29,082 bases of DNA from positions 1 to 29,082 of IMG/VR virus record IMGVR_UViG_3300042546_001227. The stretch is one strand, 5' to 3'. Shown here piece after piece: positions 4,992-16,718 of the stretch. This DNA is from a virus. The notes below the pieces were generated by a model. That model worked only from the letters and a program-made list of their open reading frames with translations, was not told the DNA's origin and did no database searches. Every line of letters begins with the position of its first letter. Within the stretch, counting starts at the first letter, position 1. A program made the position numbers and the translations under genes.

Positions 4992-5215
4992 AAAACCCAC
5001 TCCCCATCCCGCACAAGCTCCAAGGCACAGCCTCCGTCACCTTCGACCGCGACCACCTCCTCATCGCCAAGAAATACGGCGGCGTTCCCATCCTCGTGCC
5101 GCGAGGCCGCCGCCTCACCCTCGCCATCCGTCTCCCCAACGGCGAAATCCTCCACGACTTCCGCAAGGAAATCTCAAACCTCAGCAATGCCATCGCAGAC
5201 AAAATGAAGGTTTAA
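4982..5215 (+). CDS. Hypothetical protein, 77 aa
   Basis: Family not recognised. Starts MPVKNPLPIPHKLQGTASV; the middle alternates strands (VTFDRDHLL, VPILVPRGRRLTLAIRL) and the end is a short amphipathic helix. It is likely one small beta-rich domain. Start overlaps the 3' end of the coiled-coil gene; the next gene follows after two bases. Confidence 0.65.
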   Translation: MPVKNPLPIPHKLQGTASVTFDRDHLLIAKKYGGVPILVPRGRRLTLAIRLPNGEILHDFRKEISNLSNAIADKMKV

Positions 5216-5217
5216 CT

Positions 5218-5409
5218 ATGAACCCCACCGCACTCATCCTCACCGATAAAAAGACCGACAGGATCGTTCATATCATCGTCTGCAAACATGAAGACTCAAT
5301 AAGCAGATACATCATGAAGGGCGATCCCAAGCTCAACTATCAAATCGTCCCAAACTGGAACATCGTCTGCAAAGCCGTAGAAAACTTCAACCCGAAAACT
5401 TCAACCTGA
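5218..5409 (+). CDS. Hypothetical protein, 63 aa
   Basis: I start at ATG 5218, two bases after the preceding stop, not further upstream in the same open frame, where the translation is Pro/Arg-rich shadow. MNPTALILTDKKTDRIVHII and the following VCKHED look like two strands of a compact fold. The last codons (ENFNPKTST) are written by the intergenic repeat AACTTCAACC, showing that repeat sequence has become the gene's 3' end. Function unknown. Confidence 0.6.
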   Translation: MNPTALILTDKKTDRIVHIIVCKHEDSISRYIMKGDPKLNYQIVPNWNIVCKAVENFNPKTST

Positions 5410-5418
5410 AAACTCTTT

Positions 5419-5604
5419 ATGACGATCGAAGACGACACACTCGACACCGCCACCGAGCCGCAGAAAACCTCCTACACCCGACTCGTGCAACGCTACGCCT
5501 GCGCCCCCAGTCACATCTACAAAGCCTTTCACACAAAAACCCTCATCTGCGAATGGCCGTTCATCACCATCGGCATCGAACCCGACGGCTACGCCCACTC
5601 CTAA
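5419..5604 (+). CDS. Hypothetical protein, 61 aa
   Basis: Starts MTIEDDTLDTATEPQKTSY with an acidic N-terminus; the rest (LVQRYACAPSHIYKAFHTKT) is probably helical and ends in a short strand, EWPFITIGIEPDG. No recognised family. It lies between two repeat-derived leaders, AACCTGAAAACTCTTT before it and the TTCATCCTTCA array after it. Confidence 0.55.
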   Translation: MTIEDDTLDTATEPQKTSYTRLVQRYACAPSHIYKAFHTKTLICEWPFITIGIEPDGYAHS

Positions 5605-5642
5605 CGACTTCATCCTTCATCCTTCAACCTTCATACTTCGCT
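5605..5642 (+). repeat. TTCATCCTTCA-type leader repeat
   Basis: Short tandem TTCATCCTTCA units followed by CATACTTCGCT abut the ATG at 5643. An almost identical array abuts the ATG at 7454. No Shine-Dalgarno sequence is evident within it. Confidence 0.75.
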
Positions 5643-5879
5643 ATGACTATCACCTTCTCACCCGACGCCACGGCCACTTGCCTCCACACCGACGCCATCC
5701 CCCTGCAATCCCTCGGCCACTGCCGCACGCAGCGCGCCTCATGGATCGACTTCAACGAGCACACCCAAGAATGGGAAGTGCGCTTTGATCCCCACGCCGA
5801 CACCGCCGAATACTCCCACCCCTCCCGCCAAGCCTGCTTGGATTGGGAGCGCGAGTATTTCGACAAATCCTTATCGTAA
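5643..5879 (+). CDS. Hypothetical protein, 78 aa
   Basis: I use ATG 5643 immediately after the leader repeat; the open frame extends upstream but overlaps the previous gene. MTITFSPDATATCLHTDAIP is followed by a Trp-containing strand region (ASWIDFNEHTQEWEVRF) and a Cys/Trp helix. The last codons, KSLS and the TAA stop, are supplied by a palindromic repeat copy at 5865-5885. Function unknown. Confidence 0.65.
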   Translation: MTITFSPDATATCLHTDAIPLQSLGHCRTQRASWIDFNEHTQEWEVRFDPHADTAEYSHPSRQACLDWEREYFDKSLS

Positions 5880-5885
5880 GGATTT
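5865..5885. repeat. Palindromic repeat, copy D (TCG loop)
   Basis: AAATCCTTA-TCG-TAAGGATTT, with 9-bp arms. The triplet TCG plus the following TAA act as last codon and stop of the gene at 5643, which ends KSLS. The other TCG-loop copy (25214-25234) plays the same part for the small frame at 25103. Confidence 0.85.
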
Positions 5886-5910
5886 TAACTTAAAACATAA
5901 AGAAAACACA

Positions 5911-6126
5911 ATGAATCCTGAAATCCTCAAACAACTCAAAGAAGTCATGTTCGCAACTCTGGACGCCATCAAAGCAGCAGGGCCAACTGGAGCGCCTGCG
6001 GGCGTCCTCTACGCCGGATTGATGTCCTACGGGTGCAACATCACGCAATTCGAGTCCCTCATGAGCGCACTGGAGCGCACCGGCAAGATCCGCCGCGAAG
6101 GCGACCTCGTTTTCGCAATCCAATAA
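5911..6126 (+). CDS. Small winged-helix-like protein, 71 aa
   Basis: The sequence has the look of a small winged-helix fold: an N-terminal helix (EILKQLKEVMFATLDAI), then GAPAGVLYAGLMSYGCNITQ as helix-turn-helix, then FESLMSALERTGKI and a wing strand REGDLVFAIQ. Similar short proteins occur on mobile elements and near DUF1257/Ycf46-like genes, which fits its place one gene upstream of the DUF1257-like gene. DNA binding is inferred only. Leader is AACTTAAAACATAAAG. Confidence 0.6.
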   Translation: MNPEILKQLKEVMFATLDAIKAAGPTGAPAGVLYAGLMSYGCNITQFESLMSALERTGKIRREGDLVFAIQ

Positions 6127-6905: not shown

Positions 6906-7396
6906 CCGAGCAATCTTTGTTCATTGTCAATATCTCCCACAGGGAAATCCTTGCGGGAGATACCGGCCCCTTCCTCGCCAAGATGGAACCCTTCACAGAA
7001 GACCCCAAGCCGGAATATGCGAAGAATTTTCTCTTTGGCGTCGATGGCTACAACGACCGCCCTGAAGAGGTTTATACCTTTCAGGAAGTCCGCGATTATT
7101 ACAAGAAGTTGGATGCCGAATGGCCGTTCGCGCTGTTCTTCTCCAGCATCGAATTTGAAAATGTCGTGAATATCGCATTTTCAGTCGTCGATGGCATAAC
7201 CGCCAGAACCGAATTGAACTCGCCGAGAAGCTCCGTGTGCTTCGACCAGAAAATCCTTGCAGACTGGATTCTCTCGCGGTTCGCCGCCATGAACCACCTC
7301 TACGAAAAGGCCTACGGAGGCCCCACAAACGATTGCGAAGTCGCAATCAGAAAGCACACAGACGAAATCATGCAACTCTTCTTCCAATTAAACTAA
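6902..7396 (+). CDS. Hypothetical protein, 164 aa
   Basis: Family not recognised. Soluble, acidic, aromatic-rich; contains PEEVYTFQEVRDYYKKLDAE and WPFALFFSS. It lies between the DUF2997-like gene (ATGA overlap) and the AAA+ gene, so may belong to that functional cluster. Its TAA stop runs into palindromic repeat copy E. Confidence 0.7.
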   Translation: MTEQSLFIVNISHREILAGDTGPFLAKMEPFTEDPKPEYAKNFLFGVDGYNDRPEEVYTFQEVRDYYKKLDAEWPFALFFSSIEFENVVNIAFSVVDGITARTELNSPRSSVCFDQKILADWILSRFAAMNHLYEKAYGGPTNDCEVAIRKHTDEIMQLFFQLN

Positions 7397-7453
7397 AATC
7401 CTTACAATAAGGATTTTTACTTCATCCTTCAACCTTCATCCTTCATACTTCCT
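7395..7453. repeat. Palindromic repeat copy E plus TTCATCCTTCA leader repeat
   Basis: 7395-7417 is an exact palindrome copy with CAA loop; its first two A residues are part of the preceding TAA stop. 7421-7453 is a TTCATCCTTCA tandem ending CATACTTCCT directly before the ATG at 7454. The whole 57-base gap is therefore made of two repeat families. Confidence 0.85.
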
Positions 7454-8971
7454 ATGCTAACCCGTATCACCAACTACCTCAAAGCAGGCTACCCCTGCCT
7501 CTACCTCGTGAGCCACGAGGAAGCCCGCATCGAGCGCACCATCGCCGAGGCCGCAGGTGCCACAGACCGACTCCTCTTTGCGTGGGATATCGCCAAAGGC
7601 CGCCACGAAGTCATCGCAGGCACAGTCGAAGGCATCACCGACCCTGTGGAGATTCTCGAATCCGTGCAATCCATGCCAGATAACAGCCTACTGCTCCTGC
7701 GTGACTTCCACCTCTTCCTCACGCCCGACTTCCCAGGCTATGCCGTGCTTATCCGCCGTTTCAAGGATGCCCTCATCCAAGGCAAGGCACGCGGCATCAC
7801 CCTGCTCATCCTCGCCCCCGAGCTAAAGATCCCTGTCGATTGCTCCAAGCTCATTACACCCATCGAGTTCAGCCTGCCCGACCGCGAATCCCTCGCCATC
7901 GTGCTCCGCTCCATCGCCGAGAGTGCGGACATCATGCTCCCCGAGGATCTCACACCGCTCCTCGCCGCTGCCTCTGGCCTCACCACAGGAGAAGCCGAGG
8001 ACGCCTTCGCCCTCTCCATCGTAGAGACAGGCGACATCTCGCCCGACATTATCCAGCGCGAAAAAGCCAACACCATCCGCAAAAACGGCATCTTGGAGAT
8101 CGTGGACTACCCCACCACTCTCGACGGGATCGGCGGCTTGGAGAATCTCAAAGGCTGGCTCACCGCCAACCGACACCTCTACACCGACGCCGCTGCCGAC
8201 TTCGGCACCGAGCCTCCTCGCGGATTCCTCGCCTGCGGACACCCCGGCACCGGCAAGTCGCTCCTCGCCAAAGCCACGGGCAATGTCTTCAACCTCCCTC
8301 TCCTGCGCCTCGAAGCAGGCCGCCTCTTCGGCAGCCTCGTCGGCCAGAGCGAGCAAAACTGGCGCACAGCCCATGCCACCGCCAAAGCCGTAGCCCCCTG
8401 CGTGCTCTGGATCGACGAAGTGGACGGCCTCTTCGGTAGCACGGGTGGATCTACCACCGACGGCGGCACATCCGATCGCGTCATCAAAGCCATCATCCAA
8501 GATATGCAAGACCACTCCGAGGGTATCTTCTATGTCTTCACGGCGAATGATATTGACAAGATACCAGACCCCGTGATCGACCGCGTTATGACATGGCTCG
8601 TGGACTTGCCCCACCATGAGGAGCGCCTCGCCATCTGGCGCATCCACATCGCCAAGCTGCGAGGCAAGCAGAAAGCCGCTTGGGACATCGAGAACTTCGA
8701 CCTGCAACGCCTCGCCGAAGCCTCCGAGGGCTACTCCGGTCGCCAGATCGAAGCCGTGTGGAAGGATGCCCTCGTCGCCGCCTTCAACGCCCAGCGCCAA
8801 CCCACCACCGAGGACGCCATCGCCGCACTCTCCCGCACCATCGCCACCTCCAAGACCATGGGCGCAGCCATCCAAGCCCGCCGCGACCGACTCAAAGGCC
8901 GCGCCACCGAGGCATCGCTCAAACCCACCGCTACCGAAACCAAAACCCGCAAAATCGCCAAAGCCGCATGA
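7454..8971 (+). CDS. Ycf46-like AAA+ ATPase
   Basis: 505 residues. The N-terminal half begins LTRITNYLKAGYPCLYLVSH followed by EEARIERTI, typical of Ycf46-type ATPases. The AAA+ domain has Walker A GHPGTGKS (262-269), Walker B VLWIDEVDGLF (317-327, DE at 321-322), sensor-1 region VFTANDIDKIP, a DPVIDRV segment where the arginine finger is expected, and a C-terminal lid helix region with GYSGRQIEAVWKDAL. The family is a cytosolic ATPase of poorly known role, found in plastids, cyanobacteria and scattered bacteria. Here it closes a DUF1257 / DUF2997 / ATPase cluster. The tail TRKIAKAA is shared with the DUF3150-like protein ending at 4581. Confidence 0.85.
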   Translation: MLTRITNYLKAGYPCLYLVSHEEARIERTIAEAAGATDRLLFAWDIAKGRHEVIAGTVEGITDPVEILESVQSMPDNSLLLLRDFHLFLTPDFPGYAVLIRRFKDALIQGKARGITLLILAPELKIPVDCSKLITPIEFSLPDRESLAIVLRSIAESADIMLPEDLTPLLAAASGLTTGEAEDAFALSIVETGDISPDIIQREKANTIRKNGILEIVDYPTTLDGIGGLENLKGWLTANRHLYTDAAADFGTEPPRGFLACGHPGTGKSLLAKATGNVFNLPLLRLEAGRLFGSLVGQSEQNWRTAHATAKAVAPCVLWIDEVDGLFGSTGGSTTDGGTSDRVIKAIIQDMQDHSEGIFYVFTANDIDKIPDPVIDRVMTWLVDLPHHEERLAIWRIHIAKLRGKQKAAWDIENFDLQRLAEASEGYSGRQIEAVWKDALVAAFNAQRQPTTEDAIAALSRTIATSKTMGAAIQARRDRLKGRATEASLKPTATETKTRKIAKAA

Positions 8972-9569: not shown

Positions 9570-10490
9570 ATGAAAAAAACCGACCGCGACGGCATACCGG
9601 CCTTGCTCCAAGCCATCGCCGCAACGCCTGGCAAGCCAAAAGTCGAAAAAAAACTCACCAAACGCGAAGCCGAGGTGATCCGACTCATCGCCAAGGGGCA
9701 TCTTAACAAACAAATCGCCAAAATCCTACAAATCAGCATTAAAACAGTCGAAAAACACCGCCAAAACGCCATGGATCGCTTACGCCTGCGGAACACTGCA
9801 GACATAACACGCTTTGCCGTGGCCAACCAACTCATCAAAATCAAAATAAACCCATGCACCTCATTGAAACCCTCACGGGCGAAGCGGCGCGCACCCTCGC
9901 CACGACCCGCAGCCCCTACGGCCCGGGCTTTTCCCAAGAAGAAGCCCAAACCATACACACGCTCGAAGTCCACGGCTCATCCTTCAACGATCCCGGCCCC
10001 GACGCTCCAACCCACTCCCCGAAACCCTGCGACAAGACCTCCAAGACCTGCAACAAGCCATAAAAAAAGCCAAATCCACCATCCTGCAAAACGCCTTATG
10101 ACCACCACCGAACTCCCACGCCTCTACAACCACATCAACCAATCCGGCATCACCTACGGGCCGCAAAAGCTCGCCCTCATGCAGCAAGCCTGCCGCCTCA
10201 TGGAGATGCCGCTCTCCAGCGGAAACCTCGACGACGAGGGCGAGGCCATTTGCAGCCTCCTGCGCGTTAAACTTTTTGACCCCTGCAGCCAATGGACTTG
10301 GTATATCCAAGATTGGGACGGCGAAGACATCTGCTTCGGATATGTGCAGGGGATTGAGGACGAGTGGGGCAGCTTCTCCCTCCAAGAACTCTCCGAAATA
10401 CCCGGCCCCCTCAGCATCGGCATCGAAGTCGATGTCCACTTCCGACCAGTGGAACAAGAAGCCATAACCAATTTGGCCAAGAGCCAATGA
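9570..10490 (+). CDS. LuxR/FixJ-type HTH protein; frame reads on into DUF2958
   Basis: Residues about 28-92 are a clear LuxR-type (GerE) DNA-binding domain: LTKREAEVIRLIAKGHLNKQ, then IAKILQISIKTVEKHRQNA and MDRLRLRNTADI. No receiver domain precedes it, so it is a stand-alone HTH. After ANQLIKIKINP (about residue 95) the frame stays open but becomes Pro/Arg/Lys-rich for about 80 residues, a shadow of another frame, and then enters a good DUF2958-like domain at 10098. A 306-residue fusion is therefore formally possible. I think it more likely that the HTH protein naturally ends near 9850: one base fewer in the A-rich stretch at 9837-9848 would put the TAA at 9847 in frame. Independent coding for the three parts is likelier than one polypeptide. 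Confidence 0.6.
   Translation: MKKTDRDGIPALLQAIAATPGKPKVEKKLTKREAEVIRLIAKGHLNKQIAKILQISIKTVEKHRQNAMDRLRLRNTADITRFAVANQLIKIKINPCTSLKPSRAKRRAPSPRPAAPTARAFPKKKPKPYTRSKSTAHPSTIPAPTLQPTPRNPATRPPRPATSHKKSQIHHPAKRLMTTTELPRLYNHINQSGITYGPQKLALMQQACRLMEMPLSSGNLDDEGEAICSLLRVKLFDPCSQWTWYIQDWDGEDICFGYVQGIEDEWGSFSLQELSEIPGPLSIGIEVDVHFRPVEQEAITNLAKSQ
9854..10101 (+). pseudogene. Probable frameshifted small gene between HTH and DUF2958
   Basis: From ATG 9854 the second frame reads MHLIETLTGEAARTLATTRS and continues with PYGPGFSQEEAQTIHTLEV, which is convincing protein, then degrades after about residue 52. From about 10005 the third frame reads NPLPETLRQDLQDLQQAIKK followed by AKSTILQNAL, also convincing, and stops at 10099-10101 in an ATGA overlap with the DUF2958-like start. 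A single indel or -1 shift near 9995-10025 would join both into one protein of about 80 residues. Either a real mutation, a sequencing or assembly indel, or recoding explains it. Confidence 0.5.
10098..10490 (+). CDS. DUF2958-like protein
   Basis: Taken from ATG 10098 (MTTTELPRLYNHINQSGITY), 130 residues, the usual size of DUF2958. Hallmarks are VKLFDPCSQWTWYIQDWDGE, then CFGYVQGIEDEWGSFSLQEL and a conserved GPLSIGIEVDVHF near the end. DUF2958 occurs mostly on plasmids and phages and has no known function. The same frame is open upstream to the LuxR-type start, so an automatic caller would probably fuse the two. Confidence 0.75.
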   Translation: MTTTELPRLYNHINQSGITYGPQKLALMQQACRLMEMPLSSGNLDDEGEAICSLLRVKLFDPCSQWTWYIQDWDGEDICFGYVQGIEDEWGSFSLQELSEIPGPLSIGIEVDVHFRPVEQEAITNLAKSQ

Positions 10491-10703: not shown

Positions 10704-10740
10704 AAGACAAGGCAAGGTCGAAACCCCCCCATGGCTCCCC

Positions 10741-11174
10741 GCGCGTGCGGGAGTAGTCGGCTTTTTATCGGATGAGCCAGCCCCGAGGCGATTCGCCCGG
10801 CCAGCGACAACGCACCGAGTATCCGCAGGCATTCCCTGGGTCCGTCTGATGTGGAATTCGAGTCACCCAACCCCACTCGAATTCTACATCCCCTCCCCCA
10901 GGGAATCTGCGACCACTCCCGCGCGCCAAAAACTCACCGCGCACAGTCCTCTGAACTACTCCGACTTCAGGATGACGCCACGAGTCCACCCAACCCCACT
11001 CGTGCGATCTTCCTGAAGGCTTCCGTGGTTCTCGCGACTACCCCGCGCGCTAAACTCTCCGACAGCCAGTGCCATGACCGGCCCGCGTCTGCGCTTCGTC
11101 TCCGGGCTTGCCCAACCCCGCCCGGAACTCGGCCTGACGCGGCTCCGGTCATCTGCGACCACTCCCCACGCGCA
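10741..11174 (+). ncRNA. Candidate retron-like ncRNA: one 5' arm, three hairpin modules
   Basis: A 5' element (10741-10760, GCGCGTGCGGGAGTAGTCGG) can pair with three downstream elements: 10910-10926, 11035-11050 and 11156-11173, all variants of GCGACCACTCCCGCGCGC, each with about 15-17 pairs and one or two defects. Each follows a long hairpin. Hairpin 1 has 10825-10840 with 10897-10910, then 16 bp 10848-10863 with 10875-10890. Hairpin 2 has 10965-10972 with 11011-11018 and 10979-10985 with 10998-11004. Hairpin 3 has 11074-11081 with 11145-11152, 11083-11089 with 11136-11142, and 11102-11107 with 11120-11125. Stem sequences differ, yet every apical loop ends CCCAACCCC. GGCG-ATT-CGCC at 10787-10797 is a short msr-like stem-loop. 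This matches a1-msr-msd-a2 logic of retrons, with msd plus a2 apparently present three times. A retron-type RT is encoded at 12619. Strand and function are inferred. Confidence 0.55.
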
Positions 11175-11196
11175 AAACATTTAACAACAACAATCA

Positions 11197-11550
11197 ATGA
11201 TCAGAAAATTAAAAAAACTCGCGCAAATGCTATGCGATGAACTCCCAGTGCTATGCGCCGACATGGAACTACTGCACGAAGACGATCCCGAGCGCGTTCT
11301 TTTCGGGTATTCGAATGGTTGGGCAACAACATTTTGGGTTGGGGAGTCAAGCTTCTCAACAACCGCCAAAGGCCGACCACTTCGGGGCATTAAATTCTGC
11401 CATGTTTACTGCAAAAACGGCACTCCAGACTATGAATCCGAGGAGACAAGAATTCATTTTGCCCCGACACCAGAAACAGCCCTCAGCACAGCAATGGTTG
11501 AGTGTTACAAAAGAGAACTTGAGCCAAACCTTGGAATAATCACGCCATAA
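11197..11550 (+). CDS. Hypothetical protein, 117 aa
   Basis: First gene after the structured RNA-like region, starting 23 bases after its last element. MIRKLKKLAQMLCDELPVLC is an N-terminal helix. The middle has GYSNGWATTFWVGE and a Cys-containing RGIKFCHVYCKNG, and the C-terminal part is a helix (TALSTAMVECYKREL). Family not recognised. A different frame over 11237-11539 is a shadow. Seven bases separate it from the TGT-like gene, so it probably belongs to the same operon as the RT. Confidence 0.65.
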   Translation: MIRKLKKLAQMLCDELPVLCADMELLHEDDPERVLFGYSNGWATTFWVGESSFSTTAKGRPLRGIKFCHVYCKNGTPDYESEETRIHFAPTPETALSTAMVECYKRELEPNLGIITP

Positions 11551-11557
11551 ATAAATT

Positions 11558-12619
11558 ATGAAAATCTACTTCTCCGGTATCGCCGGAAACAGCGAAGCCG
11601 AAATGCTTGCCCGAGCCGACATCTCGCAACTCCTCGCAGACCCCCACGATTGGAAGAATGTGCGGCACCAATCCGCCGCCAGCGTAGCCATAGACTCGGG
11701 AGCCTATCGACAATGGAAGCGGGAAACCCCCATCACCGATCTCGACCTATGGGCTGAGCAAATCAACCACACCCTCCACCTCTCCGAATCGCCACTTTTC
11801 CACGAATTCGACGGAAAGAAAAAAAATGCAGCAACCATGCGCAAGCTCGCCTTCATCACGATGCCAGATGTGCTTGGCGATCCGCAGGAAACATGGGATC
11901 GCTGGCAAAATATCCGCGAGTGGTTCCAGTTTGACGGCAAGTGGGGCGAATACTATCACTGGACGGGCAAGATCATCCCCGTATGGCAATGGGGCGGGCG
12001 CATCGAGCATCTCGAAGCATTAGTCGAATGGGCGCAAACCCGACGCCAGTATAATAAAGAAGACGCCCAGCTCCTCGGAGAGATGAACTCCCCCGAAGCG
12101 GATCTTATCGCAATCGGCGGATGCGTGCCGTGGATGCGTGCCAAGGACGAGGGCGCCCTCGCCGAGTTGCTGTCCCTCTCTAAACGCTGGGGCGAGCATT
12201 TTCACATCCTCGGCCTCAACTGGCTCGACGCCATCATGCAGTTAGACCCATTCGTTACCTCCTGCGACACCTCCAAGTGGCTCGACGGAGCACGCTACGG
12301 ACTCTGGATCAACGATGCCAATGGCCGCCTCGTAGCCGAGAACAAGCGCACCTGTCCCCGAGGGCAATCCCGCCAGGATCTCTGCGTGCAATCCGCAATC
12401 ACCCTCAACAACTGGATCAACAAACAGCTTCGAGGCACCGCCGCCCCTAAGCCTGTGAATGTCCGCCACTACAACCTGCGCGAATTCGACCCCGAAAGCG
12501 CGCCGCGATTCAAGCCCAACGCCAACAAGCTCCTTCTCGCCCACTCCATCGCTGAAAGTAAAAAGCGACACGAGAAAGCTAAAGAAAACTTCATGGATGA
12601 ACTCGCTTACAGAAAGTAA
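11558..12619 (+). CDS. TGT/DpdA-like TIM-barrel protein
   Basis: 353 residues. Features expected for phage-type relatives of tRNA-guanine transglycosylase: an early DSGAYRQW segment (about 47-54), MPDVLGDPQETWDRW (about 103-117), IPVWQWGG, a DLIAIGGCVPW strand-loop, HFHILGLNWLDAI near the barrel end, and TSCDTSKWLDGARYGLW, the region that usually supplies the catalytic Asp. Relatives include DpdA, which inserts 7-deazaguanine into DNA. A base-exchange role here is inferred; no queuosine-precursor genes are in the window. The stop overlaps the RT start (TAATG at 12617-12621), implying translational coupling. A second, shorter relative is encoded at 16050. Confidence 0.6.
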   Translation: MKIYFSGIAGNSEAEMLARADISQLLADPHDWKNVRHQSAASVAIDSGAYRQWKRETPITDLDLWAEQINHTLHLSESPLFHEFDGKKKNAATMRKLAFITMPDVLGDPQETWDRWQNIREWFQFDGKWGEYYHWTGKIIPVWQWGGRIEHLEALVEWAQTRRQYNKEDAQLLGEMNSPEADLIAIGGCVPWMRAKDEGALAELLSLSKRWGEHFHILGLNWLDAIMQLDPFVTSCDTSKWLDGARYGLWINDANGRLVAENKRTCPRGQSRQDLCVQSAITLNNWINKQLRGTAAPKPVNVRHYNLREFDPESAPRFKPNANKLLLAHSIAESKKRHEKAKENFMDELAYRK

Positions 12620-13590
12620 TGAAAATCACAAAAATCCCTAAAGGCAATGGCAAGTTCCGCACGATCTATTGCCCAAGCCCTAGAGATAAGCCTCTCTTCA
12701 AAGGCATCGTCCACCATCTGAATGACCAAGCCATTGACCTCGACACACACAAAGTCGCTCATGGGTTCATGCCAGGCCGCTCAATCGTGACCAACGCCCT
12801 CGCCCATGTCGGCGACTGGCAGATTACCCTGCACTTCGACTTCGAGGATTTCTTCGACTCGGTAACATCGGAAATGCTGCCAGACCCGCCGAAAATCATT
12901 GCACGCACTTGGTATAGGCAGAACTGCTTCCCCGACGGAGCCGCCCGCCAAGGCCTGCCCACCAGCCCCGCCATCGCCAACATCGCCGCTGCGCCATTCG
13001 ATGCCGCCGTGATCGCACTGCGCGACAGCCTGACCCCCAAGCGCCGTATCCTCGGCAGTCGCGGCCCCGCCTTTGTCTATACCCGCTACGCCGACGACCT
13101 CACCTTCTCCTGCAATAGCGAGGCCGTCGCCGCGAGGATTCTCAAAGAAATCCCCACCCTCGCCGCCGCGCATGGATTTAAGATCAACGCCGCCAAGACG
13201 ACACGCCAGCACGCCCGCGCCGGACACCGCATCGTGACCGGCATCGCCGCGACCCCCACCGGCATCCTACCCACCCGCCAAACCCGCCGCAAACTCCGCG
13301 CCGCCTCCCACCAGATCAAGACCGGACTGCGCCGCCGCAACCTGCGCCGCATACTCACCAAGCAAGCCGAATCCTACCACCGCGACGACCCCTTCACCAT
13401 GCACCGCCTCGGCGACATCCTCCGCGCCCAATGGCGAGGCCTCGCCAGCTTCATCCGCCTCATCCCCCCACGCCACCGCACCGACCACCCCGTATCCACA
13501 ACCCACAAAAAACCAACCACATCCACCCACAAACCCTCAGCCGCCATCCCCATGCCCTTCGGCATCTTCAATAGAAAAATCACAGCATGA
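12619..13590 (+). CDS. Retron-type reverse transcriptase
   Basis: 323 residues, the size of compact retron RTs. Motifs in order: ITKIPKGNGKFRTIYCPS at the N-terminus; GRSIVTNALAH (53-63), containing the NAxxH motif of retron region X; LHFDFEDFFDSV (71-82, RT motif with catalytic Asp); RQGLPTSPAIAN (110-121); YADDLTFS (157-164, catalytic YADD); and RIVTGI (204-209), the VTG of region Y that contacts the msr. The last 40 residues are Pro/Thr/His-rich and probably disordered. Retron RTs make msDNA from a dedicated ncRNA, normally encoded just upstream. Here the best candidate, 10741-11174, lies two genes upstream. The gene is coupled to the TGT-like gene. Confidence 0.85.
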   Translation: MKITKIPKGNGKFRTIYCPSPRDKPLFKGIVHHLNDQAIDLDTHKVAHGFMPGRSIVTNALAHVGDWQITLHFDFEDFFDSVTSEMLPDPPKIIARTWYRQNCFPDGAARQGLPTSPAIANIAAAPFDAAVIALRDSLTPKRRILGSRGPAFVYTRYADDLTFSCNSEAVAARILKEIPTLAAAHGFKINAAKTTRQHARAGHRIVTGIAATPTGILPTRQTRRKLRAASHQIKTGLRRRNLRRILTKQAESYHRDDPFTMHRLGDILRAQWRGLASFIRLIPPRHRTDHPVSTTHKKPTTSTHKPSAAIPMPFGIFNRKITA

Positions 13591-13847: not shown

Positions 13848-14132
13848 ATGGACTTCTTCAACACCATCCGAGGTGTCCGCCTTGTGGACGCCACGCTGCC
13901 CGCGCTTGTGGAGCAGCTCAAACAACTCAACGCCAAGCCCTCACCCAAGAAATACCAATACGCCACCTTGCCGATGGAGGATGTCGCCTCTGCCGTGCAG
14001 GTGCTCACCAACCCCGACGCCTACATCTCCGAAGACGCCACCACCGCAGCCCTCCGCGACCTCCTCGCCCAAGGCTACCGCTGGGTTCGCCACGATGAGT
14101 ATTGGGCCGTCTTCGAAAAGGAAACCCTATGA
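13848..14132 (+). CDS. Hypothetical protein, 94 aa
   Basis: Starts one base after the previous stop. MDFFNTIRGVRLVDATLPAL leads into a helix (VEQLKQLN), then MEDVASAVQVL and a C-terminal LLAQGYRWVRHDEYWAVFEK with several aromatic residues. Likely one soluble alpha/beta domain; family not recognised. Its stop overlaps the next start (ATGA). Confidence 0.65.
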   Translation: MDFFNTIRGVRLVDATLPALVEQLKQLNAKPSPKKYQYATLPMEDVASAVQVLTNPDAYISEDATTAALRDLLAQGYRWVRHDEYWAVFEKETL

Positions 14133-15685: not shown

Positions 15686-16041
15686 AACCACACATACCTA
15701 CCAAGTTGAGAAACTGCCGGTGCGGCGCACGCCCCGATGAACTTCATATGTTTGGTTGCGATGTCGAGAGATGCCTTCACTGCGGAGGGCAATTTATCTC
15801 ATGCGACATGTATGGATGCAAGCATGGAGCGGCGACATACACCGATGGGGATGAGCGCCTTCCGTGGACTGGCGAGTGGCCGGACAAAAAGGAATGCCGC
15901 GAGTTCAACCTCTGGTGCTACGGCCCGCCGTGGACGCCATGCGAGCGAGACCATCCACAAGCCACAGAGGATCTTAACCGACTACAAGAAGTAGCTGAGT
16001 GGAGTGCAAGCGAGCGCCGATGGGTTCTCAAACCAACTTGA
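15682..16041 (+). CDS. Cys-rich zinc-binding-type protein, 119 aa
   Basis: Cysteine pairs CRCG, CDVERCLHCGG, and CDMYGC within the first 50 residues suggest one or two zinc ribbons. The second half has WTGEWPDKKECREFNLWCYG and ends EDLNRLQEVAEW. I recall similar Cys-rich proteins with a WTGEWPG segment in many bacteria and mobile elements, function unknown. ATGA coupling with the previous gene. Confidence 0.65.
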   Translation: MKPHIPTKLRNCRCGARPDELHMFGCDVERCLHCGGQFISCDMYGCKHGAATYTDGDERLPWTGEWPDKKECREFNLWCYGPPWTPCERDHPQATEDLNRLQEVAEWSASERRWVLKPT

Positions 16042-16049
16042 GCAAACCC

Positions 16050-16718
16050 ATGCACCTCCTCGTATCCAACGCCAAAAATCGCTACACCAAACTCGCAGGC
16101 AAGCACAAACTGCCTGCGAGATACGAGCACATCGTAGGGGATTTCCTCGGCCCTCGCTGCATGAAGTCCGGCAACCACACCCCCATATGGGCGGCGGACA
16201 ACGATGCCTACTCAGCATTTAATGAGAAAAAATACCTCAAAATGCTGGATCGCATCGCGGAGGCGAAAACTGCTCCGGCCTTTGTCACCGCGCCAGATGT
16301 GGTAGAAGACCACTACGCCTCGATGAAGCTCTTCGAGCGTTGGCACAACGAGTTGGCACAGCGCAATATCCCTGCCGCCTTCGTTCTGCAAAACGGCTGC
16401 GAAGACGCGTGGGAATGGCACATGGCGCGTGCCGACTGCTCCTGGTTCCCATGGGATGAAGTGGAGTGCTTCTTTATCGGTGGCGACACCGCTTTCAAGT
16501 TCTCCACCTTCATCCAAAAATTCGTAAGCACTGCTATATCCTGCGGCGGCAAATGGATCCACATGGGCCGAGTCAATTCCGTAAAACGCCTCCGATACGC
16601 CATACGAATCGGTTGCCACTCCTGCGACGGATCGGGCATGGCCCGCTTCACACAAAGCGTGCTGCTCCCCATGATCCTCGCTACACAACACAAACCCCAC
16701 CCCGAACTTAACCTATGA
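16050..16718 (+). CDS. TGT/DpdA-like protein, second copy
   Basis: 222 residues from ATG 16050; the frame is open from 15999, but those 17 codons overlap the previous gene and the alignable start is MHLLVSNAKNRYTKL. Landmarks are WAADNDAYSAFNEKKY (the DSGAF-like position, here DNDAY), PAFVTAPDVVEDHYAS, IPAAFVLQNG, a WDEVECFFIGGDTAFK segment and GKWIHMGRVNSVKRLRYAIR followed by IGCHSCDGSG, a signature of the phage and actinobacterial TGT-like branch. It is much shorter than true TGTs and than the 353-residue relative at 11558. The likely substrate is a DNA or tRNA base, by homology only. Confidence 0.65.
   Translation: MHLLVSNAKNRYTKLAGKHKLPARYEHIVGDFLGPRCMKSGNHTPIWAADNDAYSAFNEKKYLKMLDRIAEAKTAPAFVTAPDVVEDHYASMKLFERWHNELAQRNIPAAFVLQNGCEDAWEWHMARADCSWFPWDEVECFFIGGDTAFKFSTFIQKFVSTAISCGGKWIHMGRVNSVKRLRYAIRIGCHSCDGSGMARFTQSVLLPMILATQHKPHPELNL

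Follow-up and report, generated by a model that had tools for sequence, protein, structure and literature searches.

The virus record analysed here, an IMG/VR stretch of 29,082 bases that includes a phage terminase (hereafter, the window), carries a phage-borne retron. Its noncoding RNA (ncRNA) is probably a multi-template array, in which one a1 arm and one msr are followed by three exchangeable msd–a2 modules, and from which several msDNAs would be made through alternative use of the a2 elements. Retrons consist of a reverse transcriptase (RT) and an RNA that the RT copies into a small DNA; as usually described, they combine one RT, one ncRNA, and one msDNA, and almost all have one template. 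As this usual form of one msd per RT does not apply here, we regard the locus as a multi-msd variant of the retrons. The arrangement of one a1/msr and three msd–a2 units near a retron-type RT had been proposed in a sequence-only reading of the same DNA and is borne out here.

The array is situated 1.4 kb upstream of the RT gene and has the same direction (Table 1). The 20-mer at positions 10741–10760 is complementary to three elements, whose coordinates agree with those of the sequence-only reading to within 1 base; their GCGAC cores begin at positions 10909, 11034, and 11155, which reproduces the claimed spacings of 125 and 121 bases. Each a2 element is preceded by a long hairpin, and the apical loops of 11, 12, and 12 nt all end in CCCAACCCC, again as the earlier reading had it. 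No other copy of this loop sequence was found on either strand of the window. At the a1/msr border, pairing of G10759 and C10761 with the 5′-terminal GC of a2 leaves G10760 bulged. The array matched no Rfam family and no terminator-like site was found within it. A protein-coding reading was rejected, because the 129-aa ORF at 10851–11240 is not kept and the frames that are open are not the same in the four loci compared (the window and three relatives, described below).

Table 1. Features of the retron locus in the window
Feature	Position	Strand	Evidence or remark
a1 arm, single copy, GCGCGTGCGGGAGTAGTCGGC	10741–10761	+	Ends GTCG-G-C
Candidate 2′-OH priming guanosine, G10760	a1/msr border	+	Putative choice of G
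msr stem-loop 1, GGCTTTTTATCGGATGAGCC	10759–10778	+	Fold; 99–100% identity across all four loci
msr stem-loop 2, GCCCCGAGGCGATTCGCCCGGCCAGC	10780–10805	+	Folds
msd hairpin 1, loop CCCAACCCC at 10866–10874	10824–10908	+	Repeat search and folds
a2 element 1, GCGACCACTCCCGCGCGC	10909–10926	+	a1 duplex −33.1 kcal/mol
msd hairpin 2, loop CCCAACCCC at 10989–10997	10953–11033	+	Repeat search and folds
a2 element 2, GCGACTACCCCGCGCGC	11034–11050	+	a1 duplex −32.9 kcal/mol
msd hairpin 3, loop CCCAACCCC at 11111–11119	11074–11154	+	Repeat search and folds
a2 element 3, GCGACCACTCCCCACGCGC	11155–11173	+	a1 duplex −33.5 kcal/mol; predicted a1 partner in the full-length RNA (pairing probability 0.99)
117-aa ORF between array and RT	11197–11550	+	No family; absent from L003 (accessory)
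353-aa ORF, weakly queuine tRNA-ribosyltransferase (TGT)-like	11558–12619	+	phrog_887, 1.4e-10; absent from L003 (accessory)
Retron-type reverse transcriptase, 323 aa	12619–13590	+	Family, structure, and motif matches
NALAH (NAXXH, region X)	12793–12807, residues 59–63	+	Motif reading
YADD (catalytic YxDD)	13087–13098	+	Motif reading
VTG (region Y)	13234–13242, residues 206–208	+	Motif reading

In terms of its motifs and profile matches, the RT is a retron-type enzyme. Its NAXXH and VTG motifs are hallmarks of retron RTs (PMC6868368). Pfam RVT_1 matched it at 2.1e-22, and the 25 best of the 53 PADLOC families that matched it were without exception models of RTs from retron types and their relatives, headed by RT_XIII (4.2e-38), for which PADLOC gives no cut-off and behind which many other types followed closely. 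Among the solved structures in the PDB, the best matches were retron RTs, with Ec86 at the top (2.2e-15). The RT was assigned to no named retron subfamily (St85 or type XIII), because the NCBIfam model retron_St85_RT scored 127.9 bits, below its curated cut-off of 235. An identity as a defence-associated reverse transcriptase (DRT2 or DRT3) was also rejected, with a Drt2 score of 20.1 bits versus a cut-off of 390. A phylogenetic tree of 42 RTs placed the window clade (support 100/100) with the phage RTs L013–L024, and a branch with support of 95/94 parted this assemblage from the other 25 RTs.

The retron of phi R73 has the standard single msr–msd organisation, unlike that of the window. As in the window, Retronphage phi R73 (Retron-Eco3/Ec73) is a retron on a phage-like element (PMC6868368). 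Validated retrons, such as Eco1/Ec86, resemble the window in having an RT with NAXXH, YxDD, and VTG and, in the same order and on the same strand, an upstream a1, msr stem-loops, a long msd hairpin, and a2 (PMC6868368). A guanosine followed by C occurs at the a1/msr border in both; the usual priming context is AGC (PMC6868368), whereas the candidate in the window, G10760, is part of a conserved GGC. In validated retrons, each a1 goes with a single msd and a single a2, whereas the loci of the window clade have one a1/msr with three or four msd–a2 units, and the msd stems of these units are unrelated to one another and exchangeable. The window also differs from validated retrons in lacking a recognised effector. 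In Retron-Nex1 (Ne160) of Nannocystis exedens, the msr and msd are reported to occur as several repeats, apparently through duplication (PMC6868368), so a multiplied retron ncRNA is not unheard of; however, those repeats include the msr and have no RT within a kilobase, whereas the window has a single msr with an RT nearby, and only its msd–a2 portion is repeated, with divergent stems. In the open-access literature searched, no description was found of a retron in which a single a1 is combined with several msd–a2 units.

Three IMG/VR contigs encode relatives of this RT (L001, 95%; L002, 98%; and L003, 85% identical), and the array occurred at the same place near the RT in all four loci. The number of units upstream of the RT was three in the window, four in L001, and three each in L002 and L003, giving 13 units in total; homologues of varying unit number upstream of related RTs, which had been named beforehand as support for a retron, were thus found in three relatives. 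L003 lacks the 117-aa and 353-aa ORFs, and its last unit ends approximately 20 bases before the RT start, indicating that the array and the RT form the constant core. Arrays without a nearby RT had been named as evidence against the reading; the 30-base a1/msr pattern was found in no viral contig other than these retron contigs. When loop and a2 patterns were scanned together, multiple matches among those listed occurred only in the three known contigs, and the many others were single and chance-like. Searches of bacterial genome contigs and Verrucomicrobiota genomes found only distant RTs. The searches yielded four loci with this exact architecture, all close kin.

The 117-aa and TGT-like ORFs lie between the array and the RT in three loci and are missing in L003, and are thus dispensable across the relatives. 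No effector family was matched by the ORFs around the array and RT, nor was an effector conserved among the four loci; the TGT-like ORF was rejected for this role, because it was found in close relatives only, two in number, and L003 lacks it. The AlphaFold models of the 353-aa and 117-aa ORFs were uninformative (pLDDT 35 and 37, respectively). A 239-aa ORF at 15999–16718 matched the unnamed phage family phrog_15826 and resembled the 353-aa ORF by eye; both are possible base-modification enzymes. A 94-aa ORF of no known family (13848–14132 in the window) follows the RT in each of the four relatives, with 93–98% identity, and may belong to the system or to the phage backbone. The window ORF at 9570–10490 combines a LuxR-type HTH with a DUF2958 domain; in the contig of L003 (L210), these two parts match separately, at 7318–7746 and 12251–12685, which suggests a fusion or rearrangement.

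The units combine a constant scaffold with variable stems. The loop and GCGAC were invariant in 13 of 13 units, the a2 tract was nearly so, and the distance from loop to GCGAC was 43–46 in every unit. Within the four arrays, the identity of the stems was 50–65% for the left arms and 37–69% for the right arms (mean, 57–58%), against a baseline of 56% for random 34-mers, whereas the loop was 100% identical and GCGAC plus a2 85% identical. The stems within an array are therefore mutually unrelated around a preserved loop, as had been noticed from the sequence. The claim of covarying stems also held when arms were exchanged between units: arms with their own partners gave a mean of −38.4, and swapped arms paired much less (mean, −19.9). 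In aligned related units, both sides had changed in 5 of 24 and 7 of 28 pairs, which, given the few sequences, is supportive only.

Comparison of the stems between arrays revealed a mosaic. Unit 3 of the window was identical (100%) to unit 3 of L002, unit 2 of L002 was close to unit 2 of L003 (100/97%), unit 2 of the window matched unit 2 of L001, and unit 1 of the window resembled unit 1 of L003. However, the unit 1 stems of the window and L002 were only 58–59% identical, which is the random level, even though the genes are 97% identical, and several other matching unit positions were at or near random identity. Because a1/msr is 99–100% identical among the four loci and the flanking genes are approximately 97% identical for L001 and L002, drift of 3% cannot have produced such stems, and the mosaic would require cassette replacement or very fast diversification. 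A diversity-generating retroelement would have a template and a variable repeat with adenine-directed changes; the stem changes here fall on both arms and keep the pairing, which is unlike change at adenines only. The stems do not appear to be spacers, as no match above chance was found in 50,697 phage records, and no 14-nt stem match was found elsewhere in the phage contigs examined. The L003 RT (5001–5975) is strongly unlike the other three RTs at residues ~22–43 and ~83–105 and nearly identical to them elsewhere; these divergent segments suggest that mosaic exchange may have occurred inside the RT too.

Several more distant phage RT loci also carried multiple hairpin units with unrelated msd stems upstream of one retron-type RT. 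In L013 (RT 44% identical), four units lie in a 1-kb intergenic stretch, where 0.19 were expected and none of 300 shuffles reached four. L014 (RT 36% identical) contains two ncRNA copies with a 70-nt msr that is 98.6% identical and with different msd hairpins, and its a1/a2 pairs are orthogonal (own, −31.5 and −22.5; crossed, −14.3 and −5.7). In L059 (RT 31% identical), two copies of a 60-nt msr-like stretch (85%) each precede a different long hairpin. Unlike the window clade, which repeats only msd–a2, the units of these three loci are complete ncRNAs with their own msr, and those of L013 and L014 each have their own a1/a2 pair, whereas the window clade has a single a1. In more distant phage RT loci, a1 and a2 share a pattern that can be written P-G-[G]-C with GC-rc(P), and its additional G is the putative priming guanosine; the G-[G]-C/GC pattern of the window recurs in L013 (four units) and L014 (two units). 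No close relatives of L013 and L014 besides themselves were found for a comparison of unit number, and in the GC-rich loci L020, L021, L090, and L091, the high background made the signature scan uninformative. That arrays of several ncRNAs are also present in other lineages of phage RTs suggests a class that has been overlooked.

In L016, repeats upstream of the phage RT (3548–3656 and 3797–3931) were rejected as msr copies, because they are short palindromes (TGTTAGTGACCACTAACA; GTGACAA..TTGTCAC) and probably operator sites. Homologues of the AAA ATPase encoded at 7454–8971 of the window (27–36% identical) were located a few kb from the RT in L014, L019, and L021, and a 49% homologue was found in the phage contig L213, without such an RT.

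The predicted folding of the array was highly stable, with −202.7 kcal/mol for the RNA of 10736–11180 versus −139.2 ± 5.1 for dinucleotide shuffles (z = −12.6). All 13 a2 elements paired with the single a1, at −30.5 to −35.9 versus a background of −12.9 ± 4.3 kcal/mol for random 22-mers of the window. When a1–msr was joined to each of the 13 units, the RNA folded as a retron ncRNA with an a1:a2 stem and an msd hairpin, and most of these folds contained both msr hairpins. When the whole array was folded, a1 paired with the last a2 at each of the four loci, with a predicted probability of 0.98–0.997, whereas in transcripts cut after each a2, it was usually on the newest a2 (0.82–0.997), except in the L001 transcript ending after the second a2, where a1 stayed with the first. 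This predicted re-pairing is attributed to a short CGCG helix (CGCGC/GCGCG) by which each internal unit can be closed locally and which the last unit lacks. We therefore propose that the array allows a choice or switch of a2, on thermodynamic prediction only.

The almost exclusive pairing of a1 with the last a2 in the full-length RNA also fits two other explanations. One, which we consider unlikely, is that a1 acts on the last a2 only and the RT reads through all units to make one long msDNA of ~300–400 nt with three or four hairpins; the internal a2 copies would then be remnants of tandem duplication that now serve to close the individual hairpin domains. The closing helix of the internal units and its absence from the last unit agree with this; however, GCGAC is invariant in every internal unit even though the local helix does not need it, which favours each unit as a start site, and a1 pairs no less well with the internal a2s than with the last one. 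Moreover, synthesis by a retron RT normally covers just one msd hairpin and ends at a fixed point (PMC6868368). In the distant arrays L013 and L014, each unit has an a1/a2 pair to itself, which speaks for independent start sites. Less probable still is the explanation in which one unit is active, probably the last, and the others are decaying copies or a silent reservoir of cassettes for recombination. The apparent exchange of cassettes between arrays is in keeping with such a reservoir, but decay would degrade the non-terminal units, and all nine of them keep paired arms, loop, and a2. That the array is a structured element of RNA or DNA that has nothing to do with the RT (hairpins bound by proteins, terminators, or signals for packaging or replication) and lies near it by chance accords with the absence of an Rfam match but is highly improbable, given that array and RT occur together in four of four relatives and abut in L003, that the order a1–msr–msd–a2 is that of retrons, that other retron-type phage RTs carry comparable arrays, and that the array has neither a terminator-like site nor a conserved coding frame.

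Under the preferred reading, that of several msDNAs from one array, the RT would bind the common msr, a1 would pair with one of the a2 elements, and G10760 in the conserved GGC would prime 2′–5′ synthesis at the invariant GCGAC. The RT would then copy the adjacent hairpin into an msDNA of ~80–90 nt with the invariant loop 5′-GGGGTTGGG-3′. The available a2 would decide which hairpin is copied, and transcript ends, processing, or kinetics may set the mixture of msDNAs. The loop, msr, and a2 would be kept constant for the machinery, and the stems would be swapped and diversified. The hypervariability of the stems on this constant scaffold points to a possible role in conflict, in which the stems would serve as variable baits or decoys between phage and host or between phages. 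More tentatively, the locus may constitute an evolvable msDNA library, in which variable double-stranded stem cassettes are swapped within a constant scaffold of msr/a1, loop, and a2 and near-identical phages differ in their number of units and set of cassettes, so that one RT produces a panel of baits or decoys and competition among the a2 elements sets the choice.

A natural array of this kind would be a ready scaffold for the multiplexed production of single-stranded DNA. If the reading is true, the service of several templates by one RT and one primer would change the rule of one RT and one msDNA, and stems that are hypervariable yet paired, around a constant loop, would bear on the purpose of the msDNA stem.
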